From a virus, in the IMG/VR virus record IMGVR_UViG_3300047564_000994, positions 1 to 32,902 of that record: DNA of 32,902 nucleotides, one strand, 5' to 3'. Every line of letters begins with the position of its first letter. The stretch's first letter is position 1. Shown here piece by piece: positions 2,157 through 30,943 of this stretch. The notes beneath the pieces are model-generated. The model worked only from the letters and a program-made list of their open reading frames with translations. It had not been told where the DNA came from and did no database searches. Made by a program: the position numbers and the translations under genes.

Positions 2157-3002
2157 ATGAAAGATTTGATTATAGGATGTACCACGAATTATGATTGGAG
2201 TAAACTGAAGTATTGGGTTAACTCTATCAACAAATCAGGTTATAAAGGCGAGAAAGTTATGGTCGCCTTTAACATTGATTATGAAACCATCAAACGGCTA
2301 TCTGATGCCGGATTTCAGGTCATTTTGCCTGGAAAAGCAAACGACACTACACAACGATATGAATACCAATCATCGTTGCCTGTCCATGTAGAGCGCTTTG
2401 TTCACATCTACAATTACCTACAATCACATGATGCTTATCGGTTTGTTATTACTACCGATGTTAAAGATGTAATCTTTCAGGAAGACCCAACAAAATACCT
2501 TGGCATGGAATTGCCAGGTGCTAAGCTGATGTTTGCTTCCGAATCAATGAAATACAAAGATGAACCATGGGGTAACCAAAACTTAATTGAAACATTTGGT
2601 CCCTTCTTCCATGAAAGATTCAAAGACAATACAATCTACAATGTAGGCGTTTTGGCAGGTCGTGGTGAAGCGATGAGAGATTTGTGTGCGATGATATTTG
2701 TTATGTCAGTAAATCGACCTATACCAATTGTGGATCAATCCACATTTAACTTTATGATTTCACAAGAGCCATATAAATCTGTGGCAAGATACATGAAGTC
2801 AGAAGATGGATGGGCTGCACAATTAGGCACAACTGCCGACCCAAGTAAGATTAACGAATTCAAACCATTCTTGCTTGAACCATCACCAATTATGAAAGAC
2901 GGCAAAGTTGCAACTTCAACAGGAAAAGACTTTACAATTGTTCATCAATATGATAGAGTACCAGAATGGAAAAAGGTTATAGAGGAAAAATATAATGACT
3001 AA
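2157..3002 (+). CDS. Glycosyltransferase-like protein (GT-A type nucleotide-sugar fold)
   Basis: A 281-residue protein that opens the sugar cluster. The N-terminus (LIIGCTTNYDWSKLKYWVNS) reads as the first Rossmann-like beta-alpha unit of a GT-A enzyme. The segment FVITTDVKDVIFQ (about 96-108) looks like the D-x-D-type metal/nucleotide-sugar site with nearby Asp101 and Asp104. A later segment, with VDQSTFNF and downstream acidic residues, resembles acceptor-side elements of small GT-A enzymes. No signal peptide or membrane span is visible, so it should act in the cytoplasm. It overlaps the next gene by 8 bases. Donor and acceptor cannot be read from sequence; other nucleotide-diphospho-sugar-dependent enzymes of the same fold are possible. 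Confidence 0.65.
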   Translation: MKDLIIGCTTNYDWSKLKYWVNSINKSGYKGEKVMVAFNIDYETIKRLSDAGFQVILPGKANDTTQRYEYQSSLPVHVERFVHIYNYLQSHDAYRFVITTDVKDVIFQEDPTKYLGMELPGAKLMFASESMKYKDEPWGNQNLIETFGPFFHERFKDNTIYNVGVLAGRGEAMRDLCAMIFVMSVNRPIPIVDQSTFNFMISQEPYKSVARYMKSEDGWAAQLGTTADPSKINEFKPFLLEPSPIMKDGKVATSTGKDFTIVHQYDRVPEWKKVIEEKYND

Positions 3003-4023
3003 AAGAGTATTAATTACAGGTGGTGCAGGCTTCATTGCACATCACTTGATTGAAACAATCCTTGATACAACAGATTGGACAATCGTATCACTTGACCGAT
3101 TAGATTTCTCTGGCAATCTAAATCGCCTTGAAGATATTATGAAGAAGTATTCACCTGAGCAGAAGAAACGGGTTGAGATTGTGTTCCATGATTTGCGTGC
3201 TGAAATTAATCCACAGACTTCAGGTTTAATTGGTGATGTTCAATTAGTATTGCACCTTGCAGCTGGTTCTCATGTAGACCGCTCAATTGAATTCCCAATG
3301 GAGTTTGTGCAAGACAATGTAATCGGTACAGTTAATCTATTAAACTATGCTCGCACATTAAAGAACTTAGAAAAGTTTGTTTACTTCAGCACAGATGAAG
3401 TGTTTGGTCCCGCACCAGAAGGCGTAGATTACAAAGAAAGAGACCGTTACAATGCTACGAATCCATATTCAGCATCTAAGGCGGCAGGTGAAGAAATGTG
3501 TGTTGCATTTGAGAACACATACAATATGCCAATTATTGTTACACATACAATGAATGTGTTTGGTGAACGCCAACATCCTGAGAAGTTTATTCCTAAGGCC
3601 ATTCGGTATGCTCGTGATGGTGAAACACTTACTATTCACTCTGATAGAAGCAAAACAAAGGCAGGCTCACGCCACTATGTTCATGCTAAAGATGTTGCAG
3701 ATGGTTTAATGTTTATTCTAAACCTGCCTGAAGATTATGCTCGTATCCCTGATTTCGGTGGTGCGAAGATTCCTAAGTTTAACATTGTTGGTCCCGATGA
3801 AGTAGATAACTTAGAATTGGCTAAATTAATTGCAGAAGCACAAAACAAGGAGTTAAAATATGAGATGGTTGACTTTCATTCATCCAGACCTGGCCACGAT
3901 TTACGCTACGCTTTGTCTGGTGATTATATGGAATCTCTAGGTTGGAAACCAAAGATTTCTTTGCGTGACCGTATTAAAGGTATGGTTCAATGGTCGTTAG
4001 AGAATGATAAGTGGCTCAAATGA
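2995..4023 (+). CDS. NAD-dependent nucleotide-sugar 4,6-dehydratase/epimerase (extended SDR, RfbB-like)
   Basis: A 342-residue protein, the usual length for dTDP-glucose 4,6-dehydratases. It shows the NAD-binding TGGAGFIAHH (8-17), HLAAGSHVDRS (87-97) and the dehydratase-type active site triad with STDEVFG (132-138; Thr133, Asp134, Glu135). The SDR pair YxxxK follows in NPYSASK (Tyr158, Lys162). The Asp-Glu after the Thr is typical of 4,6-dehydratases rather than simple 4-epimerases. The likely reaction is NDP-glucose to NDP-4-keto-6-deoxyglucose. This would supply the substrate type used by the RfbH-like dehydrase encoded at 8897. It overlaps the neighbours on both sides. The base of the NDP donor cannot be determined. 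Confidence 0.88.
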   Translation: MTKRVLITGGAGFIAHHLIETILDTTDWTIVSLDRLDFSGNLNRLEDIMKKYSPEQKKRVEIVFHDLRAEINPQTSGLIGDVQLVLHLAAGSHVDRSIEFPMEFVQDNVIGTVNLLNYARTLKNLEKFVYFSTDEVFGPAPEGVDYKERDRYNATNPYSASKAAGEEMCVAFENTYNMPIIVTHTMNVFGERQHPEKFIPKAIRYARDGETLTIHSDRSKTKAGSRHYVHAKDVADGLMFILNLPEDYARIPDFGGAKIPKFNIVGPDEVDNLELAKLIAEAQNKELKYEMVDFHSSRPGHDLRYALSGDYMESLGWKPKISLRDRIKGMVQWSLENDKWLK

Positions 4024-4727
4024 AAATTGCACTTTGTTTATCAGGCCAACCTCGTTGCGTAAAACAAGGCTACGAGTTTATTAAAAGAAACATACTAGAC
4101 GGTAACGATGTTACCGTTTTTTGTCATGTGTGGGAAACACCTGAAGTTGCAGATATTGAAATTTATAAACCTGAAGCATTTATGATTGAAAAGTCTTTGA
4201 CAAATGACCTATCAAAATACACCAGAGTTCCACCACCACAACCAAACTGGAAAGTAAAAGACCCAGCTAGGTCAACTTATAACCAATTGTATGGCATTAT
4301 GAAATGTAATGAATTAAAAAAGGTCTATGAAGAATCCAATAACATGAAATTTGATTGGGTGATTCGTTCTCGTTTTGATTTTGCCATTAATGTTAGAATA
4401 CCTTTTGCAGAGTTAGATAATACAAAACTTCATATACCAAATTGTCGTATGACACCTCAAAGAGATTTTGGTAATGACCAATTTGCGTTTTCATCTTCAG
4501 AAAATATGGACAAGTATGCAGACACTTTTAACCGTATTGATGAGTTTTATGATGAAGATGGTGTGCAAATGATGTGTGAAGATATGATGAGTGAAAACTG
4601 GAAAGCAAATGATTTGGTTGGTGAGAACTTGATATATTGTAATCTTAATCATCCATTTCCACCTGGTCCCTATAACGGAACATGGCACAGTTTGATTCGT
4701 GAGGACTTTGAACAATGGCTTCGTTAG
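4020..4727 (+). CDS. Predicted glycosyltransferase (SGQPR / RSRFD type)
   Basis: I chose the ATG at 4020, which overlaps the upstream stop in an ATGA arrangement, rather than the GTG at 4011. This gives 235 residues. The N-terminus MKIALCLSGQPR and the internal WVIRSRFD (about 114-120) followed by NDQFAFSSS (about 152-160) are the recurring motifs of a family of glycosyltransferase-like proteins found in capsule clusters and large viruses. RSRFD probably plays the D-x-D-like metal role. There is no signal peptide or membrane segment. It lies between a nucleotide-sugar dehydratase and a nucleotidyltransferase, so it probably transfers a sugar made by this cluster. Donor and acceptor are unknown. 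Confidence 0.65.
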   Translation: MKIALCLSGQPRCVKQGYEFIKRNILDGNDVTVFCHVWETPEVADIEIYKPEAFMIEKSLTNDLSKYTRVPPPQPNWKVKDPARSTYNQLYGIMKCNELKKVYEESNNMKFDWVIRSRFDFAINVRIPFAELDNTKLHIPNCRMTPQRDFGNDQFAFSSSENMDKYADTFNRIDEFYDEDGVQMMCEDMMSENWKANDLVGENLIYCNLNHPFPPGPYNGTWHSLIREDFEQWLR

Positions 4728-5431
4728 TATTATGCATGGCTGGTTTAAACACCAGATTCCATGATGTTGGCTTTGACATACCAAAGTATCTTTTACCTTG
4801 GGGTGATGAAACAATTATCCATGAAATCATTAAGCAACTTGGTACTTTTGATGAAACTATTCTTCTGGCGAATAAAAGAGATTCTTATTTTAAGACCAAA
4901 CTAGTTGATACAATTAAACCACTAGGTCTAACAGAGAATAATATTCAATACATTGGTGATACTGATGGTCAGGCACACACAGCATACATTGGTGCTTCAC
5001 TACTAAAGAACCAAACCAAACCATTCTTTGTTCACAATGCTGATACACTTTTAATTGGTAGAGATTTTGATGAGATTGAAAGTTTGATGGCTGATGGTTA
5101 CATTGATGTGTTTGTTGCCAATAATCCAAAGTATTCTTATGTTCGCTCAAAAGATGGACTCGTAACAGAAATTGTAGAGAAATCTCCTATCTCTCCATTT
5201 GCCAGTTCTGGTCTTTATGGGTTTCAAAGCTCACAATTATACCAACAGATGTATGAGAGTTTATCTACCACATTTGTTGGTAAAGAAATGTATATTGCAA
5301 ACCTGTTTACACATATGATTGAGAAGAATTGTTCTATTGGTTTGAATGATTTGAACAACAAATATGAAACCATTGTTCTTGGTTCACCACAAGAATATGG
5401 TCTTGAATTGGCGAAAAAGAGCTTAAGATGA
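4715..5431 (+). CDS. Sugar-phosphate nucleotidyltransferase (NTP_transferase family)
   Basis: A 238-residue protein beginning with the nucleotide-binding signature in diverged form: VLCMAGLNTRF (5-15) followed by IPKYLLPWGDE (22-32), in which Lys24 is the expected phosphate-contacting lysine. FVHNADTLL (105-113) contains the metal-binding Asp110. A later VEKSP and the GLYGFQSSQ region match the sugar-binding half of these enzymes. The expected reaction is sugar-1-phosphate plus NTP giving NDP-sugar plus pyrophosphate; the base is not predictable. The start overlaps the previous gene by 13 bases and the end overlaps the next by 4. It sits immediately before the kinase-fold gene and the cyclase, which suggests one activation pathway. 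Confidence 0.8.
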   Translation: MASLVLCMAGLNTRFHDVGFDIPKYLLPWGDETIIHEIIKQLGTFDETILLANKRDSYFKTKLVDTIKPLGLTENNIQYIGDTDGQAHTAYIGASLLKNQTKPFFVHNADTLLIGRDFDEIESLMADGYIDVFVANNPKYSYVRSKDGLVTEIVEKSPISPFASSGLYGFQSSQLYQQMYESLSTTFVGKEMYIANLFTHMIEKNCSIGLNDLNNKYETIVLGSPQEYGLELAKKSLR

Positions 5432-6381
5432 AAGTTACACAATTAAAAGGTGGTTCTCTCAGCTCTACATCATTGTATGAAGATGGCGATAGAAAGTTTA
5501 TTCGCAAATTAATTAGCACAAAAGACAATCGTGAATATGGTTATGTTCGTTGGTATACACAGTTAAAGAAACTGCAACGATTAGCCGAAACTGGTTTATT
5601 TCCAAAAGTATTAGATGTGAACTATTCAAATAATTCAGCATACTTTGATATTTCTTATTTGGAAGGTTACAGAGATGTTAAGACCATTTTGGCAGAGGAC
5701 ACATTAACAGAAAACCAAATTGAAAGAATACACGATGCAATGATGTGGGCATTTGATAATCTACACCGCAAGATGTATATTCCTAATCCTGGTGGTCCCA
5801 AATTATACTTCAAAGAAGAAGTTACACAAAAACTTTCAGATGCTTTTAAGTATCCAACTTTCTATAATTTTTATGAACTTGGAACACTTAACACTTTTGA
5901 GTATAATGGTCAAATAACACACGGCATTCAAAACTTTCTACCTGAGTTGAAGAACTTCTTTGATGAAATGGAATTAATCTCAGAAGAAAATATTCATGGT
6001 AATCCAACACTAGAGAATATGATGTATTCTTTTGAAGAAGATAAAGTTATGTTTGTTGACCCTTATGAAGAAAGCATTATAGATAGTAGGCTATTAGATT
6101 ATTCACAAGTGCTTCAATGCTCTCGCAGTCATTATGGTTTTATAAATGATAGGTTTGTTATTATAGATGGTTCATCTGTATCACATAACTTAGATATACC
6201 AAATAATCTAAAAGTTTTTAGTAAAATCTTTGAATCACACCTTGAACATAAACAAATCATTGATGTATTAGAAGCAACTCAATTCATTCGTATGTTGCCA
6301 TTTAAGTGTGCAGCTGGTGATTTTGAAAAAGCAAAGTTTTTTTATGTTCATGCTTGCCATTTGTTAAGTAAGATATTTTAA
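5428..6381 (+). CDS. Kinase-fold (aminoglycoside/choline-kinase-like) protein with altered catalytic loop
   Basis: A 317-residue protein. The N-terminal GGSLSSTSLY (8-17) and KFIRK (Lys27) look like the glycine-loop and nucleotide-binding lysine of the small-molecule kinase fold. H190-G-N-P-T-L-E-N197 aligns with the Brenner-type catalytic loop HGDxxxxN, and FVDP (Asp211) aligns with the metal-binding DFG-equivalent. The expected catalytic Asp at position 192 is Asn, which is unusual. It could be a pseudokinase, or the base may be supplied elsewhere. By position, between a nucleotidyltransferase and a cyclitol synthase, its substrate would be a sugar or cyclitol. It shares 4 bases with its upstream neighbour and 1 with its downstream neighbour. 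Confidence 0.65.
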   Translation: MKVTQLKGGSLSSTSLYEDGDRKFIRKLISTKDNREYGYVRWYTQLKKLQRLAETGLFPKVLDVNYSNNSAYFDISYLEGYRDVKTILAEDTLTENQIERIHDAMMWAFDNLHRKMYIPNPGGPKLYFKEEVTQKLSDAFKYPTFYNFYELGTLNTFEYNGQITHGIQNFLPELKNFFDEMELISEENIHGNPTLENMMYSFEEDKVMFVDPYEESIIDSRLLDYSQVLQCSRSHYGFINDRFVIIDGSSVSHNLDIPNNLKVFSKIFESHLEHKQIIDVLEATQFIRMLPFKCAAGDFEKAKFFYVHACHLLSKIF

Positions 6382-7523
6382 TGGAAAATGTATTAACTAA
6401 ATTTGATAATTATAAACGCACATGGTCAGTCAAGGCTGAACTGCCTATTGAGTTTATTCTAAAGTATTCTAGTGATGTGTTTGATGTAAACAATCACGAC
6501 CTGTTATCGTTCAATGAGTCCAATCGTAAAGTGGTTGTGATTGATAAGACAGTCAATGAAATCTATGGCCAACAATTACAGGCATACTTTGATACTTTCA
6601 AAATAGAATTAAAATTGTTTGTTATTGATGCCACAGAAGAAAACAAAGACTGGCATCATACAGACCAGATTCTTAAATTCTTTGAAGATGTTGGTGTTCT
6701 GCGTAGAGAACCTGTCATTGTAATTGGTGGTGGTGTTCTGTTAGACTTGGTTGGTTTCTGTTGCTCAATTTATCGTAGAGGCATTCCTTATGTTAAAGTG
6801 CCAACTACATTGTTGGCTATTGTAGATGCTTCAGTTGGTGTTAAAGTTGCAGCCAATCATTTCAACAGACGAAATCGTATTGGTGCATATTACCCACCAA
6901 TTGCCACATTACTTGATAAGAAGTTTATTAAGACACAAGACCAAAGAAACATTGTAAATGGTATTGCAGAGATATTCAAACTTGCGGTAATCAAAGACAA
7001 AGAATTGTTTGAGTTGATGGAAGAATCATATGAACAATTGGTTGATGAGAAGTTTCAGTTTGGTGCCGTGCCTGTTCGTGTAATCAATCTTGCTATCACA
7101 GGCATGATTGAAGAACTGGCACCAAATCTGTGGGAAAGAAAACTAGACCGATGTGTTGACTTTGGTCATTCGTTTAGTCCAATTATTGAAATGCAGAATA
7201 TACCAAACCTACAACACGGTGAAGCCGTTGTATTAGATTGCCTGTTTAGCTCTTGCCTATCTCAGATTCGTGGCTACATTGATATGCCAACACTACAAAG
7301 AATCTTTCAAACGGCAAATAATCTAAAATTACCAACATTTCATAAAGATTTTTGTAATTTTGACTTGCTTAAGAAATCATTATCTGATACAATGAAGCAT
7401 AGGAACGGTAATCAATACTTACCTGTCCCTGTTGGTATTGGTAACTATAAAATGTTAAATGATGTTACTGATGATGAGATAAAGGCTTCTGCTGAATTAT
7501 TTGAAAAACTAAAGAATGAATAA
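6381..7523 (+). CDS. Sugar phosphate cyclase, EEVS-like (2-epi-5-epi-valiolone synthase type; DHQ synthase superfamily)
   Basis: A 380-residue NAD- and metal-dependent cyclase. The superfamily core is clear: IGGGVLLDLVGF (115-126), VPTTLLAIVDASVGVK (140-155) and the metal ligands Glu197 (GIAEIFK), His263 (FGHSF) and His279 (QHGEAV). Several positions follow the C7-cyclitol branch instead of 3-dehydroquinate synthase. YRRGIPYVKVPTT and NRIGAYYPP replace the dehydroquinate-synthase forms. DFGHSFSP (260-267) has Asp260 and Pro267 where dehydroquinate synthases have Asn and His in NFGHTFGH. HRNGNQYLPVPVGIG (340-354) replaces the lysine-rich substrate loop. The likely reaction is cyclisation of sedoheptulose 7-phosphate to a valiolone isomer. 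The exact stereochemical product (EEVS, EVS or other) cannot be decided by eye. Confidence 0.82.
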   Translation: MENVLTKFDNYKRTWSVKAELPIEFILKYSSDVFDVNNHDLLSFNESNRKVVVIDKTVNEIYGQQLQAYFDTFKIELKLFVIDATEENKDWHHTDQILKFFEDVGVLRREPVIVIGGGVLLDLVGFCCSIYRRGIPYVKVPTTLLAIVDASVGVKVAANHFNRRNRIGAYYPPIATLLDKKFIKTQDQRNIVNGIAEIFKLAVIKDKELFELMEESYEQLVDEKFQFGAVPVRVINLAITGMIEELAPNLWERKLDRCVDFGHSFSPIIEMQNIPNLQHGEAVVLDCLFSSCLSQIRGYIDMPTLQRIFQTANNLKLPTFHKDFCNFDLLKKSLSDTMKHRNGNQYLPVPVGIGNYKMLNDVTDDEIKASAELFEKLKNE

Positions 7524-8187
7524 AACTATATTAATTACTGGCACTACAAGTGGTGTTGGTGCTACGATTGCATATCATTACATTGAGAAAGGTTGGAATG
7601 TAATTGGTTTTGCTCGTGGTGAATCTATATTTCAATTTCCAAACTACAAACATTTTCAAGTTGATATCAGTAATTCATATGCATTGTATGATGTGTTTGA
7701 CCAAATTTATAACATTGATGTTCTAGTAAACAATGCTGCTGTGTTTAAGATGAAATCATTTTCAAACACCACTTTGAATGAGATTGATGATATGATTGAT
7801 ATTAATCTCAAGGGTGCAATATATGTAACTAAGTTTGCACTACAAAAGATGGAAAAAGGCAGTCGCATCTTCTTTATTAATTCAGTTGCAGGCCTTGAAG
7901 AATTGGAGAACCAATCTGGTTATTGTGCCTCTAAACATGGTCTTACAGGATTTGCTGGTGTTCTTGGTGAAGAATTACGACCAAGAGGAATCAAAGTAAC
8001 AAGTATTCATCCTGGTGGTATTGACACACCATTGTGGAGTAGAGATATACCTTATCCTTGTGGTGATGTAAGTAAAGCAATTTCACCTATTGAACTCGCA
8101 AAGGTAATTGATTTTGTTTGTGAGAGTAAATTCAATATTGAATATAAAACAATTAAGATGTTTCCTGATACAGAATGGCACAAATGA
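7516..8187 (+). CDS. Classical short-chain dehydrogenase/reductase
   Basis: A 223-residue SDR with the cofactor-binding TGTTSGVG (8-15), VDIS (49-52), VNNAA (71-75) and the catalytic Ser123, Tyr136 and Lys140 (GYCASK). The length is slightly short for the family but complete. ARG after the second strand (33-35) favours NADP(H). It overlaps the upstream cyclase gene by 8 bases and its stop overlaps the next start, so it is most likely translated with the cyclase. An obvious role is oxidation or reduction of a ketone on the cyclitol or on the nucleotide sugar. The substrate is not readable. Confidence 0.88.
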   Translation: MNKTILITGTTSGVGATIAYHYIEKGWNVIGFARGESIFQFPNYKHFQVDISNSYALYDVFDQIYNIDVLVNNAAVFKMKSFSNTTLNEIDDMIDINLKGAIYVTKFALQKMEKGSRIFFINSVAGLEELENQSGYCASKHGLTGFAGVLGEELRPRGIKVTSIHPGGIDTPLWSRDIPYPCGDVSKAISPIELAKVIDFVCESKFNIEYKTIKMFPDTEWHK

Positions 8188-8897
8188 TTATACCAAATAC
8201 CGATTTGTTTATAGTAACATCGGCTCTAAGAACGAGAATTGGTGTTATTGATGATGAAACAAGAACAAGGCAAACAATTGAAGGTTTGCAATCACTACGC
8301 AAGGCTGCACCTGATGCACTTATTTTATGGGTAGATGCCTCATCTAAACAGGTTGACGAAGCAACAATGGCTCAAGTAACTCAATACTGTAATAAGAGTA
8401 TTAGTTTTTTTGGTGATGAAGATTTAATGTCACTTGCAAACGCAGGTCTTAAATCTCAAGCTGAAGTTGCTTTATTATTTAAGACACTAAGTATTATTAA
8501 GCAACATCCTGAACTACAAAAGATGATGGCTGGTGTCCGTAGAGTGTTTAAGTTGTCAGGTAGAACCAATATGCTTGAAGGTTATGACCCAAAAGCATAT
8601 GACAACCAATATGGTAAGTATGTGTTTAAGAAAGCAATACCTTCTTGGTTGCCACCACAGAAACAATTAGAATCTGGTTGTGACCACTTATACATAACTA
8701 GAATGTATTCATTCTGTATATCATTGTTTGATAATTATTTGAATACTTTACCAACGATTTATCAAACAATAAATCAACATGGCGTAGATACAGAACACGC
8801 ACACTATGGTAATATTGATAAAGGTTTCTCAGTAGAATTTGAAAAGTTATATTGCCAAGGAGTATTGGCTGGAAATGGACAATTGGAAGCATATTAA
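8184..8897 (+). CDS. Unknown protein of the sugar cluster, possibly a glycosyltransferase
   Basis: Two ATGs are possible, at 8175 and 8184. I prefer 8184 because it overlaps the upstream TGA as ATGA, the dominant arrangement here; this gives 237 residues. The N-terminal IIPNTDLFIVTSAL and LILWVDAS resemble alternating strands of a nucleotide-binding half. RVFKLSGRTNM (about 119-129) recalls the KxSGRY motif, and DTEHAHYGNI the late EHxxY-type motif, of some virus and capsule glycosyltransferases. There is no membrane segment. I do not recognise a defined family; the context makes a sugar-transfer role the best guess. Confidence 0.6.
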   Translation: MIIPNTDLFIVTSALRTRIGVIDDETRTRQTIEGLQSLRKAAPDALILWVDASSKQVDEATMAQVTQYCNKSISFFGDEDLMSLANAGLKSQAEVALLFKTLSIIKQHPELQKMMAGVRRVFKLSGRTNMLEGYDPKAYDNQYGKYVFKKAIPSWLPPQKQLESGCDHLYITRMYSFCISLFDNYLNTLPTIYQTINQHGVDTEHAHYGNIDKGFSVEFEKLYCQGVLAGNGQLEAY

Positions 8898-10180
8898 TGA
8901 TTGATGATAAATTAATTGAAGAAATAGCCAAACAGGCTAAACCGAAGTATCAACAAGACTATTCTAACTTCAAACCTGGCGAAGATTATGTAATGTATTC
9001 TGGCCAAATGTGGGACGAAAAAGAGTTTGCTGCTGGTCTAAAATCGTTTCTAACAGGTAAATGGTTACCAGCAGGTGAAAGAGTTGAGCAATTTCAAATT
9101 AAGTTCTCAAAGAAATACAATGTAAAACAATCTCACATGGTTAATTCTGGTTCATCTGCCAATTTGGTAATGATTGCAGCCGTGAAGAAGCATTTGAATT
9201 GGCAAGATGGTGATGAAGTCATTGTATCACCAGTTGGATTTCCAACTACAATTGCACCATTGATGCAGAACAATCTTAAGCCAGTATTCATTGATATTGA
9301 GTTTGATACATTGAATTTCAATGTAGATTTAATTGAACAAAAGATTACATCAAAGACCAAAGCAATTATTGTTTCTCCTGTGTTGGCCAATCCGCCTGAC
9401 ATGGATAGAATCCATGATATTTGTTACAGAAACAATATAGTATTAATTGGTGATAACTGTGATTCACTAGGCACAAAATGGAATGGTAATTTGATTACTG
9501 ATTTGTATTACTGCTGGTCAACATCATTCTATCCTGCACATCATATGTCAACAGGTGAAGGCGGAATGATTTCGTCTAACGATGAGAAACTAATTGACAT
9601 TGCTCGTTCAATTTCTTGGTGGGGTCGTGATTGTTATTGTGTCGGTTCAAACAATATGTTACCATGTGGAACTTGTGGTAATAGGTTTGATAAGTGGTTG
9701 CCAGATTATGATGGCATCATTGACCACAAATATATTTTTGCTTATGCAGGTTATAATTTGAAGCCACTTGATATGCAAGGTGCAATTGGTATAGCACAAC
9801 TAGAAAAAGTTGATTACATTGACCAGAAACGCAAAGAACACAAAGAGAGATTATCTAAACTATTAACCAAATATTTGAATATTCGTATTGCTGATAAGTT
9901 AGACAAGGCAGACCCATCTTGGTTTGGTGTGCCAATTATATGCGAAACACAAAAACAAAAAGAAACTTTGGTTGCACACTTTGAAGCCAATAAGATTCAG
10001 ACACGAAACTATTTTGCTGGTAATATCTTATTGCATCCAGGTTTCAAACACTTAGATGATTCAAGTAAATATCCATTGGCAAACAAAGCATTATCTCATG
10101 TATTTTTGTTGGGTTGTCCTCCGTTTTGGAATGATGCAGTATTTGATTATATTGAAAAGGTGATTAAAAATGTTACTTAA
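8897..10180 (+). CDS. rfbH: RfbH-type PMP/[2Fe-2S]-dependent NDP-4-keto-6-deoxyglucose-3-dehydrase (DegT family)
   Basis: I start at the ATG overlapping the upstream stop (TAATG), giving 427 residues. The fold is the DegT/AHBA aminotransferase fold (NSGSSANL 83-90; SPVGFPTT 111-118). The internal-aldimine lysine is replaced by histidine in SFYPAHHMSTGEGG (210-223, His215), the hallmark of the E1 dehydrase. The iron-sulfur cysteines are present: Cys188, Cys246, Cys248 and Cys260. The spacing is C-x57-C-x-C-x11-C, whereas the classic E1 spacing ends in x7, so there is a four-residue insert (with an extra Cys257). Expected chemistry is C3 deoxygenation toward 3,6-dideoxysugars, with a reductase partner not found in this window. 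Confidence 0.87.
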   Translation: MIDDKLIEEIAKQAKPKYQQDYSNFKPGEDYVMYSGQMWDEKEFAAGLKSFLTGKWLPAGERVEQFQIKFSKKYNVKQSHMVNSGSSANLVMIAAVKKHLNWQDGDEVIVSPVGFPTTIAPLMQNNLKPVFIDIEFDTLNFNVDLIEQKITSKTKAIIVSPVLANPPDMDRIHDICYRNNIVLIGDNCDSLGTKWNGNLITDLYYCWSTSFYPAHHMSTGEGGMISSNDEKLIDIARSISWWGRDCYCVGSNNMLPCGTCGNRFDKWLPDYDGIIDHKYIFAYAGYNLKPLDMQGAIGIAQLEKVDYIDQKRKEHKERLSKLLTKYLNIRIADKLDKADPSWFGVPIICETQKQKETLVAHFEANKIQTRNYFAGNILLHPGFKHLDDSSKYPLANKALSHVFLLGCPPFWNDAVFDYIEKVIKNVT

Positions 10181-12714: not shown

Positions 12715-15423
12715 ATGAAATTTAGAGAATTTATACAAGAACAAAAAGAGAAGCACGCCGTCCTGGCCTTTGGCAGGATGAATCCACCTACAACTGGTCA
12801 CGCCAAGTTGGTAGACAAGGTTAAAGAAGTTGCTAAGTCTGTTGGTGGTTCACATCATGTAGTTCTATCTCATTCTCAGGATCCTAAAAAGAATCCACTC
12901 TCCGCTAAAGACAAACTCAAACACGCAAAACGGTTCTTTCCTGACACTAATCTGTCAACATCCAGCAAAGAACATCCAACTTTCCTAGACCACGCAGCCA
13001 AACTCCACAAATCTGGTGCAACACATTTGCACATGGTGGCCGGTTCTGACCGCAAAGAAGAATACAAAAAGAAACTGGCACAATACAATGGAACACACGA
13101 GGGTGCATTATTCAATTTTAAAAAGATTACTGTTCATTCTTCTGGTGAAAGAGATCCTGATGCTGAAGGCACAGAAGGAATGTCAGCATCAAAAATGAGA
13201 AGTCATGCTTCAACAGGCAACTTCAAAGAATTTAAGAAAGGTGTTCCTGGCCATGTACCTGGACATCACGCAAAAGAATTATACAACGATGTTCGTAAAC
13301 ACATGGGTGTAAAAGAAAGTGTTGATGATGAATTTGAAGAACTTATTACTGAAGGTGTGCATGACAAAGGCATTTTCAAAGCAGTATTTTTAGCAGGTGG
13401 TCCTGGTTCTGGTAAAGATTATGTTTTAGATAATACTTTGTCTGGCCATGGTATGACCGAGATTAACTCTGATAAGGCTTTAGAGTTTTTGATGGACAAA
13501 AAAGGTCTAAACAAGACCATGCCTGCATCTGAGAAGATTGAAAGAGATTTAGTTCGTGGTCGAGCCAAGAACATGACTGAGTTACGCCAGCGTTTAGCAC
13601 TACAAGGTCGCAATGGTTTAATCATCAATGGCACAGGTGATGACCATGAAAAAGTTAAAATAATTAAATCACGCCTTGAAGAATTAGGTTATGACACTTC
13701 AATGATTATGGTTAACACACGAGATGAAGTATCTGCTTCACGAAATGTTGAAAGAGGTTCTCGTGGTGGTCGTACCGTACCTGAAGATGTTCGCAAACAA
13801 AAATGGGATGCCGTTCAAAAGGCAAGACCTGAATTAGCAAAACTATTTGGTGACAGATATGCTGAGTTTGATAACTCTGAAGATTTAAGAGTTGCAAGAC
13901 CAGAGATTGTTCAAGCAAAAAAAGAAGAACTTCTGAACCTATACAAAGGTGTTCAGAAGTTTATGAAAGCACCACCAAAAGCAGACCAAGCAAAAGAATG
14001 GGTAGCAAATGAGTTACAGAAAAAAGATGCAATGCCAATCAGTAAGAAAACTGATGCGATGCCACATCCTGATTCTGCTGCCTCTGCTGAAGCACGCAAA
14101 CTTGGTTTAGAATACTACGGCTTTGGTCGCTACGGTAAAGATAGAAAAACATTGTATCGCTCGGTACATGATAAACTAGTTAAGGTTTCTGATGTAGAAC
14201 CACAACAACCAAACATTCCAATTTCAGGTTCATCTATGAAACCACAGAAAAAAATAAACGAAGAATTTGAAGAATTATTTGAGGCAGTTACAATAACAAT
14301 TAATGCTGACACACCAGAAGAAGCGGCTAAAGCAATTAAATTGTTGACCTCAAATGATGAAGAAGAACAAGAAGTGGAAGAAAGTCATTTATCTAATAAT
14401 GATGCACTAAGAATATTAACATTAGGTAGAATGACCGAAGATGTTCTATTAACTGAAAAGTGTTGGGATGGTTACACAGCAAAAGGTATGAAAAAGAAAG
14501 GCAATCGTATGGTGCCAAATTGTGTGCCTGTTTCTGAAGCCAAGAAACCAACAGCACTAGAAAAGTTCCGTCAAGCCGCAGCTGAAAGAGAAAGAAAACA
14601 CGCAGAGATTGAAAAAAATCGGTCTAAAGATGGTTCTGGTATGACTGCTGCTATTGACCGTTTAGAGAAACAAGTTAACAAAGAAGAAGTTGAAAAAGTA
14701 AATGAAATTTCAGTTGATTCAGCATCCAATTATATTAAAAAAAGAACATTTGGTTATGTAAAAACAATGAAAGGCCAAGTTCAACCTTCTGATGTATATA
14801 ACAAAATGTCAGATAAACACAAAGCAGGCATTAGCCGTGCTATGGACAGAGTTGTTAAACCAGTTAAAGAAGAAGTCAAATTAAACCATAAACATTTATT
14901 GAAAGATACGAGTGGCAAAGTCAGAACATTTATGCTTCGCCGTTCAGCAGCAAAAGAAGCCCACATCAATGGTGGTGTAGTCCACAAGATGGGCAATGGA
15001 TATGTTATTAAAATTAAGGAGAATGAAGATGCTAAAAGCACTAATCAATTATTTGAAAATCAAACCAACAGTATCGCCATGCGAGGACAAACCAGTAGAA
15101 GCTCCGAAGGCGGAAGAGCCAGCGAAGAAAGAAACTGTCAAGAAGGCTACAACACGGGCAAAATCACCCTCAGTCAAATCCGCTCCAAGAAAGAAAAAGT
15201 AAGCGAATCAATTGATAGAGGAATTGAACCAGGACTTTCAATGGCACAATCAGGTGAAAACTTCAGTAGACCTGCAGGTGAGAAGTTAAACAAAAAAGGT
15301 CGAGTTGTTACTGAACTAACTGGTGATGAAACAACAGCCAGTATTGGTGACCAAAAAGAAGATGAACTTAAAAAGAAAGGCATTAGTTTATTGTCATTCA
15401 AAAAGAGAAACTACGCACTATGA
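12715..15423 (+). CDS. Multidomain protein: NMN-adenylyltransferase-like domain, P-loop kinase-like domain and repeat-rich tail; candidate packaged polyprotein
   Basis: A 902-residue protein. Residues 14-200 form an HxGH-type nucleotidyltransferase: FGRMNPPTTGHAKL (19-32) and the late GMSASKMR (155-162), as in NadR/NMNAT proteins. Residues 221-420 form a P-loop kinase-like domain with GGPGSGKD (228-235) and an INGTGDD strand (304-310), similar to zeta-toxin-type kinases. The tail is Lys/Glu-rich with small modules: CWDGY...VPNCV (583-605), a VNEISVDSASNYIKK module (662-676), and a conserved ending with ELTGDETTASIGDQKEDEL (867-885). The leader MKFREFIQE resembles a T4 capsid-targeting sequence. 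The linkers EEFEEL..E (ITE213-G, LFE523-A) look like prohead-protease sites between modules. It follows a late promoter. Confidence 0.8.
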   Translation: MKFREFIQEQKEKHAVLAFGRMNPPTTGHAKLVDKVKEVAKSVGGSHHVVLSHSQDPKKNPLSAKDKLKHAKRFFPDTNLSTSSKEHPTFLDHAAKLHKSGATHLHMVAGSDRKEEYKKKLAQYNGTHEGALFNFKKITVHSSGERDPDAEGTEGMSASKMRSHASTGNFKEFKKGVPGHVPGHHAKELYNDVRKHMGVKESVDDEFEELITEGVHDKGIFKAVFLAGGPGSGKDYVLDNTLSGHGMTEINSDKALEFLMDKKGLNKTMPASEKIERDLVRGRAKNMTELRQRLALQGRNGLIINGTGDDHEKVKIIKSRLEELGYDTSMIMVNTRDEVSASRNVERGSRGGRTVPEDVRKQKWDAVQKARPELAKLFGDRYAEFDNSEDLRVARPEIVQAKKEELLNLYKGVQKFMKAPPKADQAKEWVANELQKKDAMPISKKTDAMPHPDSAASAEARKLGLEYYGFGRYGKDRKTLYRSVHDKLVKVSDVEPQQPNIPISGSSMKPQKKINEEFEELFEAVTITINADTPEEAAKAIKLLTSNDEEEQEVEESHLSNNDALRILTLGRMTEDVLLTEKCWDGYTAKGMKKKGNRMVPNCVPVSEAKKPTALEKFRQAAAERERKHAEIEKNRSKDGSGMTAAIDRLEKQVNKEEVEKVNEISVDSASNYIKKRTFGYVKTMKGQVQPSDVYNKMSDKHKAGISRAMDRVVKPVKEEVKLNHKHLLKDTSGKVRTFMLRRSAAKEAHINGGVVHKMGNGYVIKIKENEDAKSTNQLFENQTNSIAMRGQTSRSSEGGRASEERNCQEGYNTGKITLSQIRSKKEKVSESIDRGIEPGLSMAQSGENFSRPAGEKLNKKGRVVTELTGDETTASIGDQKEDELKKKGISLLSFKKRNYAL
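15029..15202 (+). CDS. Candidate overprinted small basic protein nested in the 902-residue gene
   Basis: A 57-residue frame in the +1 phase of the long gene. An AAGGAG ribosome binding site at 15016-15021 lies seven bases before the ATG at 15029 (a second in-frame ATG is at 15023). The product starts MLKALINYLK and becomes a Lys/Ala/Pro/Glu-rich tail ending in SAPRKKK, similar in style to histone-H1-like or DNA-binding tails. In the host frame, residues 771-825 read as unstructured Ser/Arg/Gln-rich sequence unlike the rest of that protein. Base use there is richer in G and C than nearby. Both facts suggest that the nested frame shapes this stretch. The function is unknown. Confidence 0.5.
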   Translation: MLKALINYLKIKPTVSPCEDKPVEAPKAEEPAKKETVKKATTRAKSPSVKSAPRKKK

Positions 15424-26502: not shown

Positions 26503-28293
26503 ATGAATAATATCGTTCACGGTATTAAGGTAGATTATTCTCGTGATTCATTGTTTGATGAATTGGGAATTAAAAGATTAAAAGAGTCCTATATGAAAGA
26601 GGACGAAACATCACCGCAGGAGAGGTTTGCATATGTTTCAAAGGCGTTTGGCTCTAACGAAGAGCATTCACAGAGGTTGTATGAGTATAGTTCCAATCAT
26701 TGGCTTTCTTATTCTACTCCCATTCTTAGCTTTGGTCGCAGTAAGCGTGGTCTTCCTATATCATGTTTTCTCCCTTATCTACATGATTCGGCAGAAGGAC
26801 TAGTAGATTGCCTTGCTGAAGTAAATTGGTTATCAATGCTGGGTGGTGGTGTAGGCATCGGCATTGGTATTCGTAGTGCTGATGATAAATCAACAGGCGT
26901 AATGCCACACTTGCGTACCTATGACGCCTCATCACTAGCCTATCGTCAAGGTCGCACACGCAGAGGTTCATATGCAGCCTATCTTGATATCAGTCATCCT
27001 GATGTATTAATGTTCTTGGAGATTCGTAAACCAACAGGCGACCAGAATATGCGTTGCCTGAATTTACATCACGGCATTAATATTACCGATGAGTTTATGC
27101 ACCTTGTTGAGCAATCAATGCTTGACCCAAACTTTGATGACACATGGCAATTAAAAGACCCAGCGTCAGGTGAAGTAAGAGATACTATTTCTGCTCGTGA
27201 ACTATGGCAAAGAATTTTAGAAACAAGAATGTTAACTGGTGAACCATATATCCATTTCATTGACACCAGCAATCGGCTCATGCCACAATTTCAGAAAGAT
27301 TTGGGTCTAAAGATTCAACAATCAAACCTATGCTCTGAGATTATTCTACCAACAGATAAAGATAGAACAGCCGTTTGCTGCCTATCGTCAGTTAATTTGG
27401 AGTATTATGATGAATGGAGAACTAACAAATTATTTCTTAAAGATATTGCCGAGATGCTTGATAATGTCCTTGATTACTTCATTACTAATGCTCCTGATGC
27501 TGTCAGTCGTGCAAAGTTTAGTGCCGAGCGAGAGCGTTCTATTGGTATCGGTGCTCTTGGGTTCCATGCTTATCTACAGCGTAATGGCATTGCTTTTGAA
27601 GGTGTTATGGCTAAAGTAGCCAATAACAAAATGTTCAAACATATAAGGAGTAAATTAGATGAAGCCAACTTGGAATTGGGTGGTGAACGGGGCTCTCCTG
27701 GTGACTGTGCCGGCACCGGCCTACGCTTCGCTCACGTTATGGCTGTGGCCCCAAATGCTTCCAGCTCTATTCTTATGGGTAACACCAGTCCTTCTATTGA
27801 GCCATATCGTGCTAATGCTTACAGACAAGACACCTTATCAGGAGCATATCTGAATAAGAATAAATTCCTTGATGCTATCCTCAGAGCAAAAGGTTTAACA
27901 GAAGAACAAATGCAAGATACATGGTCATCTATTATTGCAAATGATGGTTCAGTTCAACATTTAGATGTGTTAGATGAAACGCAAAAAGATGTGTTTAAGA
28001 CCAGTATGGAAATTGACCAACGCTGGGTAATTGAACACGCAGCTGACCGCCAAGTGTATATTGACCAAGCACAATCATTGAACCTATTCTTTAGGCCTGA
28101 TGTGAATGTTAAGTATCTTCATGCTTGCCATTTCTTGGCATGGAAAAAAGGATTGAAAACACTATACTATTGTCGTTCAGAGAAGTTAGCGAAGGCTGAT
28201 AAGGTCTCTAAGCGTATTGAAAGAGAAGTTATCAAAGAATTAGACATGACTGCTATCGCACAAGGTAATGAGTGCTTGGCGTGTGAAGGGTAA
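26503..28293 (+). CDS. nrdA: Ribonucleotide reductase, class I large (alpha) subunit, short form
   Basis: I use the ATG at 26503, which has a TTGGAG site five bases upstream; the in-frame GTG at 26497 overlaps that site. This gives 596 residues. Active-site residues are visible: Cys88 (ISCFLP), Asn275-x-Cys277-x-Glu279 (SNLCSEI) and the redox partner cysteine in VCCLSSVNL (Cys292). PNASSSILMGNTSPSIEPYR is the conserved phosphate-binding loop. The C-terminal ECLACEG keeps the CxxC that is re-reduced by thioredoxin or glutaredoxin. The N-terminal ATP-cone found in E. coli NrdA is missing, so dATP inhibition is probably lost. The beta subunit is at 29247. Confidence 0.93.
   Translation: MNNIVHGIKVDYSRDSLFDELGIKRLKESYMKEDETSPQERFAYVSKAFGSNEEHSQRLYEYSSNHWLSYSTPILSFGRSKRGLPISCFLPYLHDSAEGLVDCLAEVNWLSMLGGGVGIGIGIRSADDKSTGVMPHLRTYDASSLAYRQGRTRRGSYAAYLDISHPDVLMFLEIRKPTGDQNMRCLNLHHGINITDEFMHLVEQSMLDPNFDDTWQLKDPASGEVRDTISARELWQRILETRMLTGEPYIHFIDTSNRLMPQFQKDLGLKIQQSNLCSEIILPTDKDRTAVCCLSSVNLEYYDEWRTNKLFLKDIAEMLDNVLDYFITNAPDAVSRAKFSAERERSIGIGALGFHAYLQRNGIAFEGVMAKVANNKMFKHIRSKLDEANLELGGERGSPGDCAGTGLRFAHVMAVAPNASSSILMGNTSPSIEPYRANAYRQDTLSGAYLNKNKFLDAILRAKGLTEEQMQDTWSSIIANDGSVQHLDVLDETQKDVFKTSMEIDQRWVIEHAADRQVYIDQAQSLNLFFRPDVNVKYLHACHFLAWKKGLKTLYYCRSEKLAKADKVSKRIEREVIKELDMTAIAQGNECLACEG
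27659..27853 (+). CDS. Speculative overprinted hydrophobic peptide inside nrdA
   Basis: A 64-residue frame in the +1 phase of nrdA, with AAGGAG at 27645-27650 and an 8-base spacer to the ATG. The product would be very hydrophobic: a signal-like start with VPAPAYAS, then MLPALFLWVTPVLLLSHIVL, so one or two membrane spans. The DNA at about 27690-27750 uses GC-rich codons (GGC, ACC, CGC) unlike the rest of nrdA, which could reflect a second coding constraint. Against it, another frame in the same phase (27407-27619) is also hydrophobic, so this may be a composition effect. Confidence 0.25.
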   Translation: MKPTWNWVVNGALLVTVPAPAYASLTLWLWPQMLPALFLWVTPVLLLSHIVLMLTDKTPYQEHI

Positions 28294-28616
28294 TGAAACT
28301 AACAAAGGCTGCCGCTGAAAGAATTCGTGATTTAATTATTGAAGAAAACGAACCTAAATTAAAAGGTTTGAGGGTTGCTCTCAGAGGCGGTGGTTGTAAT
28401 GGCTTTGAATATGTTTTTACTTTTGAAGATACAATAGAAGAAGATGATTTTGTTTTTGAAGCAACAGATGTTAAACTAATAGTGGATTATATGTCAATGG
28501 AATACTTAAATGAAGCAACATTAGATTATGTTGAAAAGCCTTTTGAATCAAGGTTTGTAATTAGTAATCCAAATATAAAATCTTCTTGTGGTTGTGGTTC
28601 ATCGGTGGGTTTTTAA
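28293..28616 (+). CDS. A-type iron-sulfur carrier protein (IscA/ErpA/HesB-like)
   Basis: A 107-residue protein with the three conserved cysteines of the family: Cys35 in RGGGCNGFEY, and Cys99 and Cys101 in SSCGCGSS. Other core elements are KLTKAAAERI and a VDYMSMEYLNEATLDYVE segment. The length is standard. It would bind and deliver Fe-S clusters or iron in the host cytoplasm. It starts one base into the nrdA stop. Possible clients include the Fe-S-dependent RfbH-type dehydrase of this phage and host electron-transfer proteins. The iron-containing NrdB and desaturase may also depend on iron supply. No partner is proven. Confidence 0.9.
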   Translation: MKLTKAAAERIRDLIIEENEPKLKGLRVALRGGGCNGFEYVFTFEDTIEEDDFVFEATDVKLIVDYMSMEYLNEATLDYVEKPFESRFVISNPNIKSSCGCGSSVGF

Positions 28617-29254: not shown

Positions 29255-30239
29255 GAAAACAGAAAGTAAATTAACAGATACACGCAACAGTTTTAAGCCG
29301 TTCAACTATCCATGGGCATATGAAGCATGGTTGAAGCATGAGCAATCACATTGGTTGCATACTGAAGTACCAATGCTTGAAGATGTGAAAGATTGGAAAA
29401 AGAAACTCACACCAGCTGAGAAACATTTTTTAACCAATATCTTCCGTTTCTTCACGCAAGGCGACATTGATGTGGCAGGTGGTTATGTAAAGAACTATCT
29501 ACCATATTTTCCACAACCAGAAGTAAGAATGATGTTGATGGGTTTTGCTGCTCGTGAGGCATTACATATTGCGGCCTATTCACACCTGATTGAAACACTT
29601 GGTCTACCTGATGCAACATACAATGAATTTATGGAATATCAGGAGATGAAAGACAAGCACGATTATGTTTTAGATATCTCAGATAAGAATGGCACCAAAG
29701 AGAACACCGCAAAGCATATTGCTGTATTCTCTGCCTTTACAGAAGGTATGCAGTTGTTTAGCTCATTCATTATGTTGTTGAATTTTCCACGCCAAGGTAA
29801 AATGAAAGGCATGGGTCAAATCATTACATGGTCAATCGTTGATGAAACCATGCACGCTGAATCCATGATGAAGTTGTTCAAAACTTATATACATGAGAAC
29901 ACCGAGATTTGGAACGATGAATTAAAACAATCTATCTATGCCATTGCAGAAAGAATGGTTGAATTAGAAGATAAATTTATTGATTTAGCATTTAGTATGG
30001 GTGAGATGGAAGGTCTAACACCAGCCGATGTAAAGCAATACATTCGTTATATTGCTGACCGCAGGTTGATTGGTCTAGGCATGAAGGGCATTTTCAAAGT
30101 CAAACGCAATCCATTGCCATGGGTTGAAGAAATGATTAATGCTCCAACACACACCAACTTCTTTGAAAACCGTTCAACAGATTATTCTAAGGGTGCATTA
30201 AGTGGTACATGGGACGATGTTTGGGGTAAAGCCGCCTAA
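29247..30239 (+). CDS. nrdB: Ribonucleotide reductase, class I small (beta) subunit
   Basis: I prefer the ATG at 29247 (MIKKTESKL, 330 residues) over that at 29235; the latter would add MREK. The di-iron and radical site is visible: Glu40 (HTEVPMLED), Glu104 and His107 with Tyr111 in REALHIAAYSHL, matching the ExxH-xxx-Y pattern of the tyrosyl radical. FSAFTEGMQLFSSF and a later DETMHAESMMKLF supply the second set of Glu and His ligands. The radical Tyr is present, so this is a Tyr-radical class I enzyme rather than a radical-free variant. Eight bases overlap the upstream gene. Confidence 0.94.
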   Translation: MIKKTESKLTDTRNSFKPFNYPWAYEAWLKHEQSHWLHTEVPMLEDVKDWKKKLTPAEKHFLTNIFRFFTQGDIDVAGGYVKNYLPYFPQPEVRMMLMGFAAREALHIAAYSHLIETLGLPDATYNEFMEYQEMKDKHDYVLDISDKNGTKENTAKHIAVFSAFTEGMQLFSSFIMLLNFPRQGKMKGMGQIITWSIVDETMHAESMMKLFKTYIHENTEIWNDELKQSIYAIAERMVELEDKFIDLAFSMGEMEGLTPADVKQYIRYIADRRLIGLGMKGIFKVKRNPLPWVEEMINAPTHTNFFENRSTDYSKGALSGTWDDVWGKAA

Positions 30240-30943
30240 TGTTAATTCTATACACATTGGTGATGACACACATCACCATTCTTTGTGTTACAATGTATTT
30301 ACATCGTAGCCAAGCACACCGAGCAGTAACATATAATCCTGTAGTAGAACATCTCATGCGGTTTTGGCTATGGCTTACAACAGGCATGGTCACAAAAGAA
30401 TGGGTTGCTATACATCGTAAGCATCACCAGATGACCGACCAATATGGCGACCCACATTCACCAAAAGTATATGGCATTTGGCGTGTATTGTTTGGTGGTG
30501 CATTTCTGTATGCTAATGCAAGTAAAGATAAACTAATGGTTCAAGCATACGGCAAAGGAACACCTGACGATTGGGTTGAGAAGAATATATACTCAAAGTA
30601 TAGCCTTGTAGGCGTAATAGCATTATTGATTATTGAAACCTATCTATTTCACGGATGGGGTATTGTTATGTGGTTAATACAGATGGCCTGGATTCCATTT
30701 TGGGCTGCAGGCGTGGTCAATGGTATTGGCCATTATTGGGGTTATCGTAACACCGAAACAAATGATACATCCAAAAATATTATACCAATGGGTTTGATTA
30801 TTGGTGGTGAAGAACTACATAATAACCATCATAACAAACCAGCGAGTGCAAAACTATCTGAGAAATGGTTTGAATTAGATATTGGATGGTTTTGGATTAA
30901 AACATTAAGTTATTTGAAATTAGCAAAAATTAATAGGAAATAA
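30239..30943 (+). CDS. Fatty-acid desaturase (acyl-lipid/acyl-CoA delta-9 type)
   Basis: A 234-residue integral membrane protein, a short form of the desaturase family. All three His boxes that bind the di-iron centre are present: HRSQAH (22-27), HRKHH (59-63) and HNNHH (194-198). A further His lies in GIGHYWG. Hydrophobic spans lie at about 1-20, 35-50, 122-138 and 140-160. It should introduce a double bond in acyl chains of host membrane lipids using a host electron donor. It begins one base before the end of the nrdB stop, so it is co-expressed with that gene. Phage desaturases are auxiliary metabolic genes. Confidence 0.9.
   Translation: MLILYTLVMTHITILCVTMYLHRSQAHRAVTYNPVVEHLMRFWLWLTTGMVTKEWVAIHRKHHQMTDQYGDPHSPKVYGIWRVLFGGAFLYANASKDKLMVQAYGKGTPDDWVEKNIYSKYSLVGVIALLIIETYLFHGWGIVMWLIQMAWIPFWAAGVVNGIGHYWGYRNTETNDTSKNIIPMGLIIGGEELHNNHHNKPASAKLSEKWFELDIGWFWIKTLSYLKLAKINRK

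Follow-up and report, generated by a model that had tools for sequence, protein, structure and literature searches.

A linked gene set with a putative sedoheptulose 7-phosphate cyclase in T4-like phages, and its candidate role in making an activated C7-cyclitol

What use does a virus have for a sugar phosphate cyclase set among genes for sugar activation and reduction? The question is raised by IMG/VR virus record IMGVR_UViG_3300047564_000994, whose positions 1 to 32,902 are the whole stretch analyzed here (the 32.9 kb window). Six genes lie on its + strand at 4011–8897, with successive overlaps of 1 to 13 bases. For four of them (4715–8187), an earlier reading of the DNA letters (the original prediction) had proposed a head-to-tail series of a nucleotidyltransferase (NTase), a protein of small-molecule kinase fold, a sugar phosphate cyclase, and a short-chain dehydrogenase/reductase (SDR). 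These four overlapping open reading frames (ORFs; g4 to g7 in Table 1) were found at those positions, and their enzyme classes were borne out by Pfam for g4, g6, and g7 and by the AlphaFold2 fold for g5. The nearest solved structure to g4 is an NDP-sugar pyrophosphorylase (4evw, 91 bits; NDP, nucleoside diphosphate), while g7 conserves the SDR residues N97, S123, Y136, and K140. Here, we argue that the operon g4–g8 probably makes an NDP-activated C7-cyclitol, a carba-sugar, from sedoheptulose 7-phosphate (S7P) and transfers it.

Type and active site of the cyclase

2-Epi-5-epi-valiolone synthases (EEVS), such as ValA and AcbC, release the phosphate of S7P and leave a ring ketone. The family name that both Pfam and NCBIfam attach to g6 is 3-dehydroquinate (DHQ) synthase, under which the phage would be boosting the host shikimate pathway. 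Comparison with solved structures in the Protein Data Bank (PDB) points instead to the S7P branch, as had been predicted: g6 scored 300.8 bits against the EEVS ValA (4p53), 238 bits against a desmethyl-4-deoxygadusol synthase (DDGS; 5tpr), 132 bits against the best DHQ synthase, and 78 bits against 2-deoxy-scyllo-inosose synthase (DOIS). The same order of ValA, DDGS, and DHQ synthase was returned by a profile from 25 phage cyclases (339.5, 266.6, and 173.6 bits, with DOIS at 104.8).

The active site is of the EEVS type. The zinc ligands of g6 (E197, H263, and H279) align with the metal ligands of ValA, to which g6 is ~43% identical over the ValA chain segment, and the signatures singled out earlier, Asp260 and Pro267 in DFGHSFSP, YRRGIPYVKVPTT, and NRIGAYYPP, are all present. 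Together with D260 and P267, H340 and W251 complete the EEVS residues of g6. The equivalents of ValA D281, P288, H360, W272, E266, and K221 are identical in 51 of 51 phage cyclases examined, and the first four are EEVS-like also in all five cyclases of the bacterial gene sets described below. We take D281 and H360 to be the published key sites of ValA, an assumption that draws partly on a figure legend (PMC4426668). DDGS differs from the phage cyclases at each of the six positions except P288, and a DDGS function in a mycosporine pathway was rejected because g6 has Asp and His where DDGS has Ala and Thr (ValA D281/H360). The positions of D281 and P288 are occupied by Asn and His in DHQ synthases. 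Departures from ValA comprise V156 of g6 in place of Thr172 and, in roughly every second phage copy, an Ala at T357.

A tree of 74 cyclases (IQ-TREE, LG+C20), which held no 2-epi-valiolone synthase (EVS), DOIS, or aminodehydroquinate synthase (aminoDHQS) sequences of known function, placed the phage cyclases in a 45-row clade with ValA (88/94). Within it, they are nested in a 24-row branch (98/91) beside Paracidovorax, Kitasatospora, and the bacterial copies that belong to the gene set. DDGS fell outside the ValA clade, the DHQ synthases were distant, and the split between EEVS plus DDGS and the other cyclases received 100/99. Joining the phage and bacterial-set cyclases with the DHQ synthases was rejected by the approximately unbiased (AU) test (p-AU 2e-55). 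The NCBIfam aroB model scores g6 at 213 bits, under its cut-off of 305, and the set-carrying bacterial genomes that were checked also encode a separate DHQ synthase. The Asp/Pro replacement of Asn/His, the aroB score, and the AU test thus rule out g6 as a DHQ synthase, and a contribution to the host shikimate pathway is scarcely credible.

The structure scores, ValA-equivalent residues, tree, and AU test agree and support g6 as a cyclase of the S7P branch, of EEVS type, with S7P as its presumed substrate by analogy with known pathways. The AU test did not quite reject a placement of the phage and bacterial-set cyclases outside EEVS plus DDGS (p-AU 0.061), and "sedoheptulose 7-phosphate cyclase" is therefore a firmer label for g6 than "EEVS"; a position inside EEVS rather than beside EEVS plus DDGS is favored, not proven. 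The same test, the own branch of these cyclases, and the lack of EVS, DOIS, and aminoDHQS references in the tree would be compatible with a cyclase that uses S7P but yields another product, such as 2-epi-valiolone, a DDGS-like enone, or a new isomer. We consider this unlikely, as the D281, H360, and W272 positions are all EEVS-type rather than DDGS-type.

Linkage of the four genes in viruses and bacteria

Searches of IMG/VR returned 55 and then ~80 viral loci per query, with cyclases 52–100% identical, and linkage was counted after removal of duplicates on loci with enough flanking sequence. In every one of the 61 distinct viral loci, the kinase-like, cyclase, and SDR genes lie side by side, and the NTase is within 3.5 kb in 60 (at locus L287, the NTase is just inside the locus but past the strict distance of the script). 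For g5, 69 distinct copies have sufficient sequence beyond their 3' end, and the cyclase follows in all of them. Since the triad order is kept in all 61 loci and the dN/dS (nonsynonymous to synonymous rate ratio) of the set genes against related phages is 0.05–0.24, the set does not reflect chance or decay. The conserved block is broader than the four genes and extends in most relatives from 4011 (g3) to 8897 (g8). Among the close phage relatives, almost all have g3 directly before g4 and g8 directly after the SDR.

The flanking sugar genes (g2 and g9–g13) are variable, present in some relatives and not in others, as would be expected if the four were unrelated neighbors in a sugar-gene island. 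Yet the four stay linked while their neighbors change, both among phages and across two bacterial phyla, with differing orders, which makes such an accidental grouping very improbable. The evidence supports treating the four genes as a single functional unit, of which bacteria offer an independent instance.

The original prediction had assigned the set to a T4-like phage. The Gp23 major capsid protein is encoded in four of four long set-carrying relatives of 133–162 kb (E ~1e-142), and the carriers are therefore T4-like; in the 32.9 kb window itself Gp23 was not found, so the assignment holds for the relatives and is not visible in the window. The T4-like phages that carry the set form a large and mostly aquatic group. 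Two triad loci have a RuBisCO large-chain homolog (PF00016) directly upstream (L359:3799–5037, E 1e-43; L287:4881–5999, E 2e-32), in which the KEDE and HAG motifs are kept and which is preceded by a small cupin-like protein. At another (L256:3998–8694), the triad adjoins an NDP-sugar epimerase/decarboxylase-like gene, followed by a UvdE-like endonuclease gene.

Among 50,697 named phage records, no close relative of g6 was found (best match 29%). The named-phage cyclase matches were rejected as relatives of the set: identities are below 30% or barely higher, and those with an annotation bear the name "3-dehydroquinate synthase" and lie in bacterial-origin records or short prophage fragments. 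T4-like cyanophages encode an NTase 27–29% identical to g4, and several of the same phages carry relatives of g3, but no relative of the cyclase or of the kinase-like protein was found there; the only g5 relative in the named phage collection is a weak one, gp311 of Bacillus phage G (24%). To our knowledge, C7-cyclitol pathways are known from drug-producing bacteria, such as the makers of acarbose, from symbionts, and from sunscreen-making organisms, and we know of no phage case. The open-access literature on phages with valiolone, cyclitol, or pseudosugar genes likewise yielded no report of a phage C7-cyclitol pathway, in line with the earlier statement that none was known from a T4-like phage.

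The set is not phage-specific. In a sample of the phylum Myxococcota, 4 of 284 genomes contain a strong g5 relative, and three of these (G413, G418, and G471) carry the same four families as an operon that differs from the phage arrangement in its kinase-cyclase-SDR-NTase order. The operons are flanked by unrelated genes, one of them on a 3.5 kb contig, and are 45–47% (cyclase), 43–44% (SDR), and 38–40% (NTase) identical to the window. A Myxococcales metagenome-assembled genome (FL481) and Prochlorococcus AG-424-E20 have the phage order NTase-kinase-cyclase, but the gene that comes next encodes an aldo/keto reductase and not an SDR; the reductase step is therefore kept with a non-homologous enzyme, an exchange that fits a required reduction. 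A GT61 gene lies near the FL481 set, and the Prochlorococcus set stands beside sulfotransferase and TPR proteins, on a contig that looks like a surface-glycan island. The family and the set are rare in cells: the set was found in 1 of 386 cyanobacterial genomes, the remaining weak cyanobacterial and Myxococcota g5 matches lack it, and no g5 relative was found at E 1e-20 in 398 Pseudomonadota genomes, a search with no positive control in that phylum, although the same query worked in Myxococcota and Cyanobacteriota.

The kinase-like protein and the proposed route

A Pfam scan of g5 itself gave no match. Its AlphaFold2 model (predicted local distance difference test score, pLDDT, 91.6) has the aminoglycoside phosphotransferase (APH)/choline-kinase fold, with 259 residues aligned to APH(4)-Ia at Z 19.1 and a root-mean-square deviation of 3.0; LicA and fructosamine kinases are nearly as close, and a bacterial homolog exceeds the cut-off of Pfam APH (PF01636). 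The catalytic Asp position of this kinase family is occupied in g5 by N192; N197 and D211 are retained. Of the 63 distinct viral copies, 62 have the HGNxTLEN form and one has LGN; all five bacterial copies have HGN, and the TLEN and IDxY motifs are invariant in the family. Since the catalytic Asp is Asn in all copies, phosphotransfer by g5 is unproven. Another residue may act as the base, for which the sequence suggests E196 of TLEN as a candidate. Such a uniform HGN/LGN accompanied by invariant motifs points to a selected change, and g5 may instead be a pseudokinase, a regulator, or an enzyme for another group transfer, with the phosphate needed by g4 coming from elsewhere. We regard this as rather unlikely, given the retained fold and nucleotide-site residues (N197 and D211), the strong purifying selection, and a position in the pathway that calls for one kinase.

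Under the route that we favor, g6 would convert host S7P to 2-epi-5-epi-valiolone or a close isomer with loss of the phosphate, g7 would reduce the ring ketone, g5 would add a phosphate onto the new C1 hydroxyl, and g4 would turn the resulting cyclitol 1-phosphate into an NDP-cyclitol. The last step would be transfer of the cyclitol by g8, perhaps also by g3 and g1, onto an acceptor, most likely a glycan of the virion or host surface. The computations establish the families or folds of g4–g8, the EEVS-type active site, and the linkage in phages and bacteria; what we infer beyond them is the sequence of reactions after the cyclase, phosphorylation by g5, the identity of the nucleotide and of the acceptor, the stereochemistry, and any advantage to the phage. 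Activation after the cyclase needs a reduction, a phosphorylation, and a nucleotide transfer, and the operon holds exactly an SDR, a kinase fold, and an NTase. In acarbose biosynthesis, valienol can receive a C1 phosphate from AcbU, and AcbR then makes GDP-valienol from the valienol 1-phosphate with C7 left unphosphorylated (PMC9200736). A cyclase, a reductase, one kinase, and an NTase would therefore be sufficient, and the short route is chemically precedented. The product is likely simpler than valienol, because none of the four genes corresponds to the epimerase, dehydration, or 7-phosphate steps of acarbose and validamycin synthesis.

The original prediction had further claimed that the acarbose and validamycin pathways use the same enzyme classes. 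The logic is indeed shared for an S7P cyclase, a dehydrogenase, a cyclitol 1-kinase function, a cyclitol NTase, and a (pseudo)glycosyltransferase, but the claim fails for the kinase class, as the 7-kinases AcbM and ValC are ROK-like (PMC9200736) and g5 is an APH-fold protein with HGN. The parallel therefore lies in the logic of the pathways and does not extend to homology between the kinases. The phage cluster differs also in its GT-A fold versus the GT5/GT20-like pseudoglycosyltransferases, and neither a ROK-type 7-kinase, an epimerase (including a 2-epimerase), a phosphatase, nor dehydration enzymes were recognized among the cluster ORFs scanned with Pfam and NCBIfam. With respect to ValA and AcbC, the phage cyclases share the clade but form their own branch, in T4-like phages.

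A glycosyltransferase had been expected near the set, and g8, directly after the SDR, is the candidate. Sequence searches gave no identity for g8; its AlphaFold2 model (pLDDT 92.9) shows a GT-A fold, with Z 13.4 to GnT-I and glycogenin as the top Foldseek match (E 9e-8), from which g8 is predicted to be a glycosyltransferase of this fold.

Several observations weigh against the favored route. Besides the placement test of the cyclase, the kinase-like family lacks the Brenner motif HxDxxxxN with its catalytic Asp, so that g5 may phosphorylate by other means or may not be the enzyme of this step; the triad occurs at one viral locus (L256) without a recognizable NTase; and no glycosyltransferase was recognized beside the three Myxococcota operons, where transfer would not be obligatory. 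The latter two would suit a free or phosphorylated C7-cyclitol with a role inside the infected cell or, after release, outside it, for instance as a sugar-mimic inhibitor, with the nearby glycosyltransferases serving other pathways, and a plant symbiont does make (+)-streptol with an EEVS (PMC8599487). However, 60 of the 61 viral loci and every one of the five bacterial sets include an NTase, and the GT-A-fold gene keeps its place in nearly all close phage relatives, which leaves a free cyclitol improbable and an NDP-activated, transferred product the better reading.

We put forward more tentatively the fuller proposal that T4-like phages make an NDP-carba-sugar by a minimal four-enzyme route to decorate the virion or host surface, with a kinase-fold enzyme working without the canonical Asp. 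If correct, an activated carba-sugar could be reached in very few steps, in phages and through a rare four-gene bacterial operon, and a function could be given to genes that at present carry the labels DHQ synthase or hypothetical protein. A glycan unit with a ring resistant to ordinary glycosidases would add a chemically unusual element to the sugars of the phage–host contest, and the four-gene set is small enough for test-tube reconstitution.

Flanking genes and other features of the window

Table 1. Genes of the conserved block and a nearby glycosyltransferase-like gene in the window
Gene	Positions	Strand	Product and basis
g1	2157..3002	+	distant glycosyltransferase-like protein, PHROG 1579; most viral relatives have it close to the core
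g3	4011..4727	+	238 aa, fold unassigned; PHROG 13607, weak DUF7796
g4	4715..5431	+	nucleotidyltransferase; NTP_transferase PF00483 (E 9e-8)
g5	5428..6381	+	APH/choline-kinase-fold protein; HGN(P/L/A)TLEN replacing HGDxxxxN
g6	6381..7523	+	EEVS-type sugar phosphate cyclase (putative); DHQ_synthase PF01761 and DHQS_C
g7	7516..8187	+	short-chain dehydrogenase/reductase; Pfam adh_short
g8	8175..8897	+	predicted GT-A-fold glycosyltransferase

A search of the PDB with g3 gave no match. Two candidate relationships of g3 were rejected: profile comparison showed no similarity between g3 and g8 as related glycosyltransferases, and no significant match was obtained with a TPR/glycosyltransferase-like protein of Prochlorococcus. 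Immediately downstream of g8, the DegT-family protein at 8897–10180 is closest to RfbH (364 bits) and has a His (FYPAHHMSTGEGG) at the position of the pyridoxal phosphate-binding lysine of the aminotransferases; on these two grounds, the protein is probably not an aminotransferase but a 3-dehydratase of 3,6-dideoxy sugar synthesis.

No tRNA was found in the window. An IscA/ErpA-like Fe-S carrier (28293–28616) and a desaturase-like membrane protein (30239–30943; histidine motifs identified by eye) adjoin ribonucleotide reductase genes. The ORFs at 268, 12715, 15420, 17492, and 19830 begin with MKxFxEFLxE-like N-termini (e.g. MKFKEFLTEL and MKFREFIQEQ), which we take to resemble the capsid-targeting sequence of T4 internal head proteins; their products may be packaged and injected. 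One of them (12715–15423, 902 aa) carries, after this N-terminus, a cytidylyltransferase-like domain and a zeta-toxin/AAA kinase domain.

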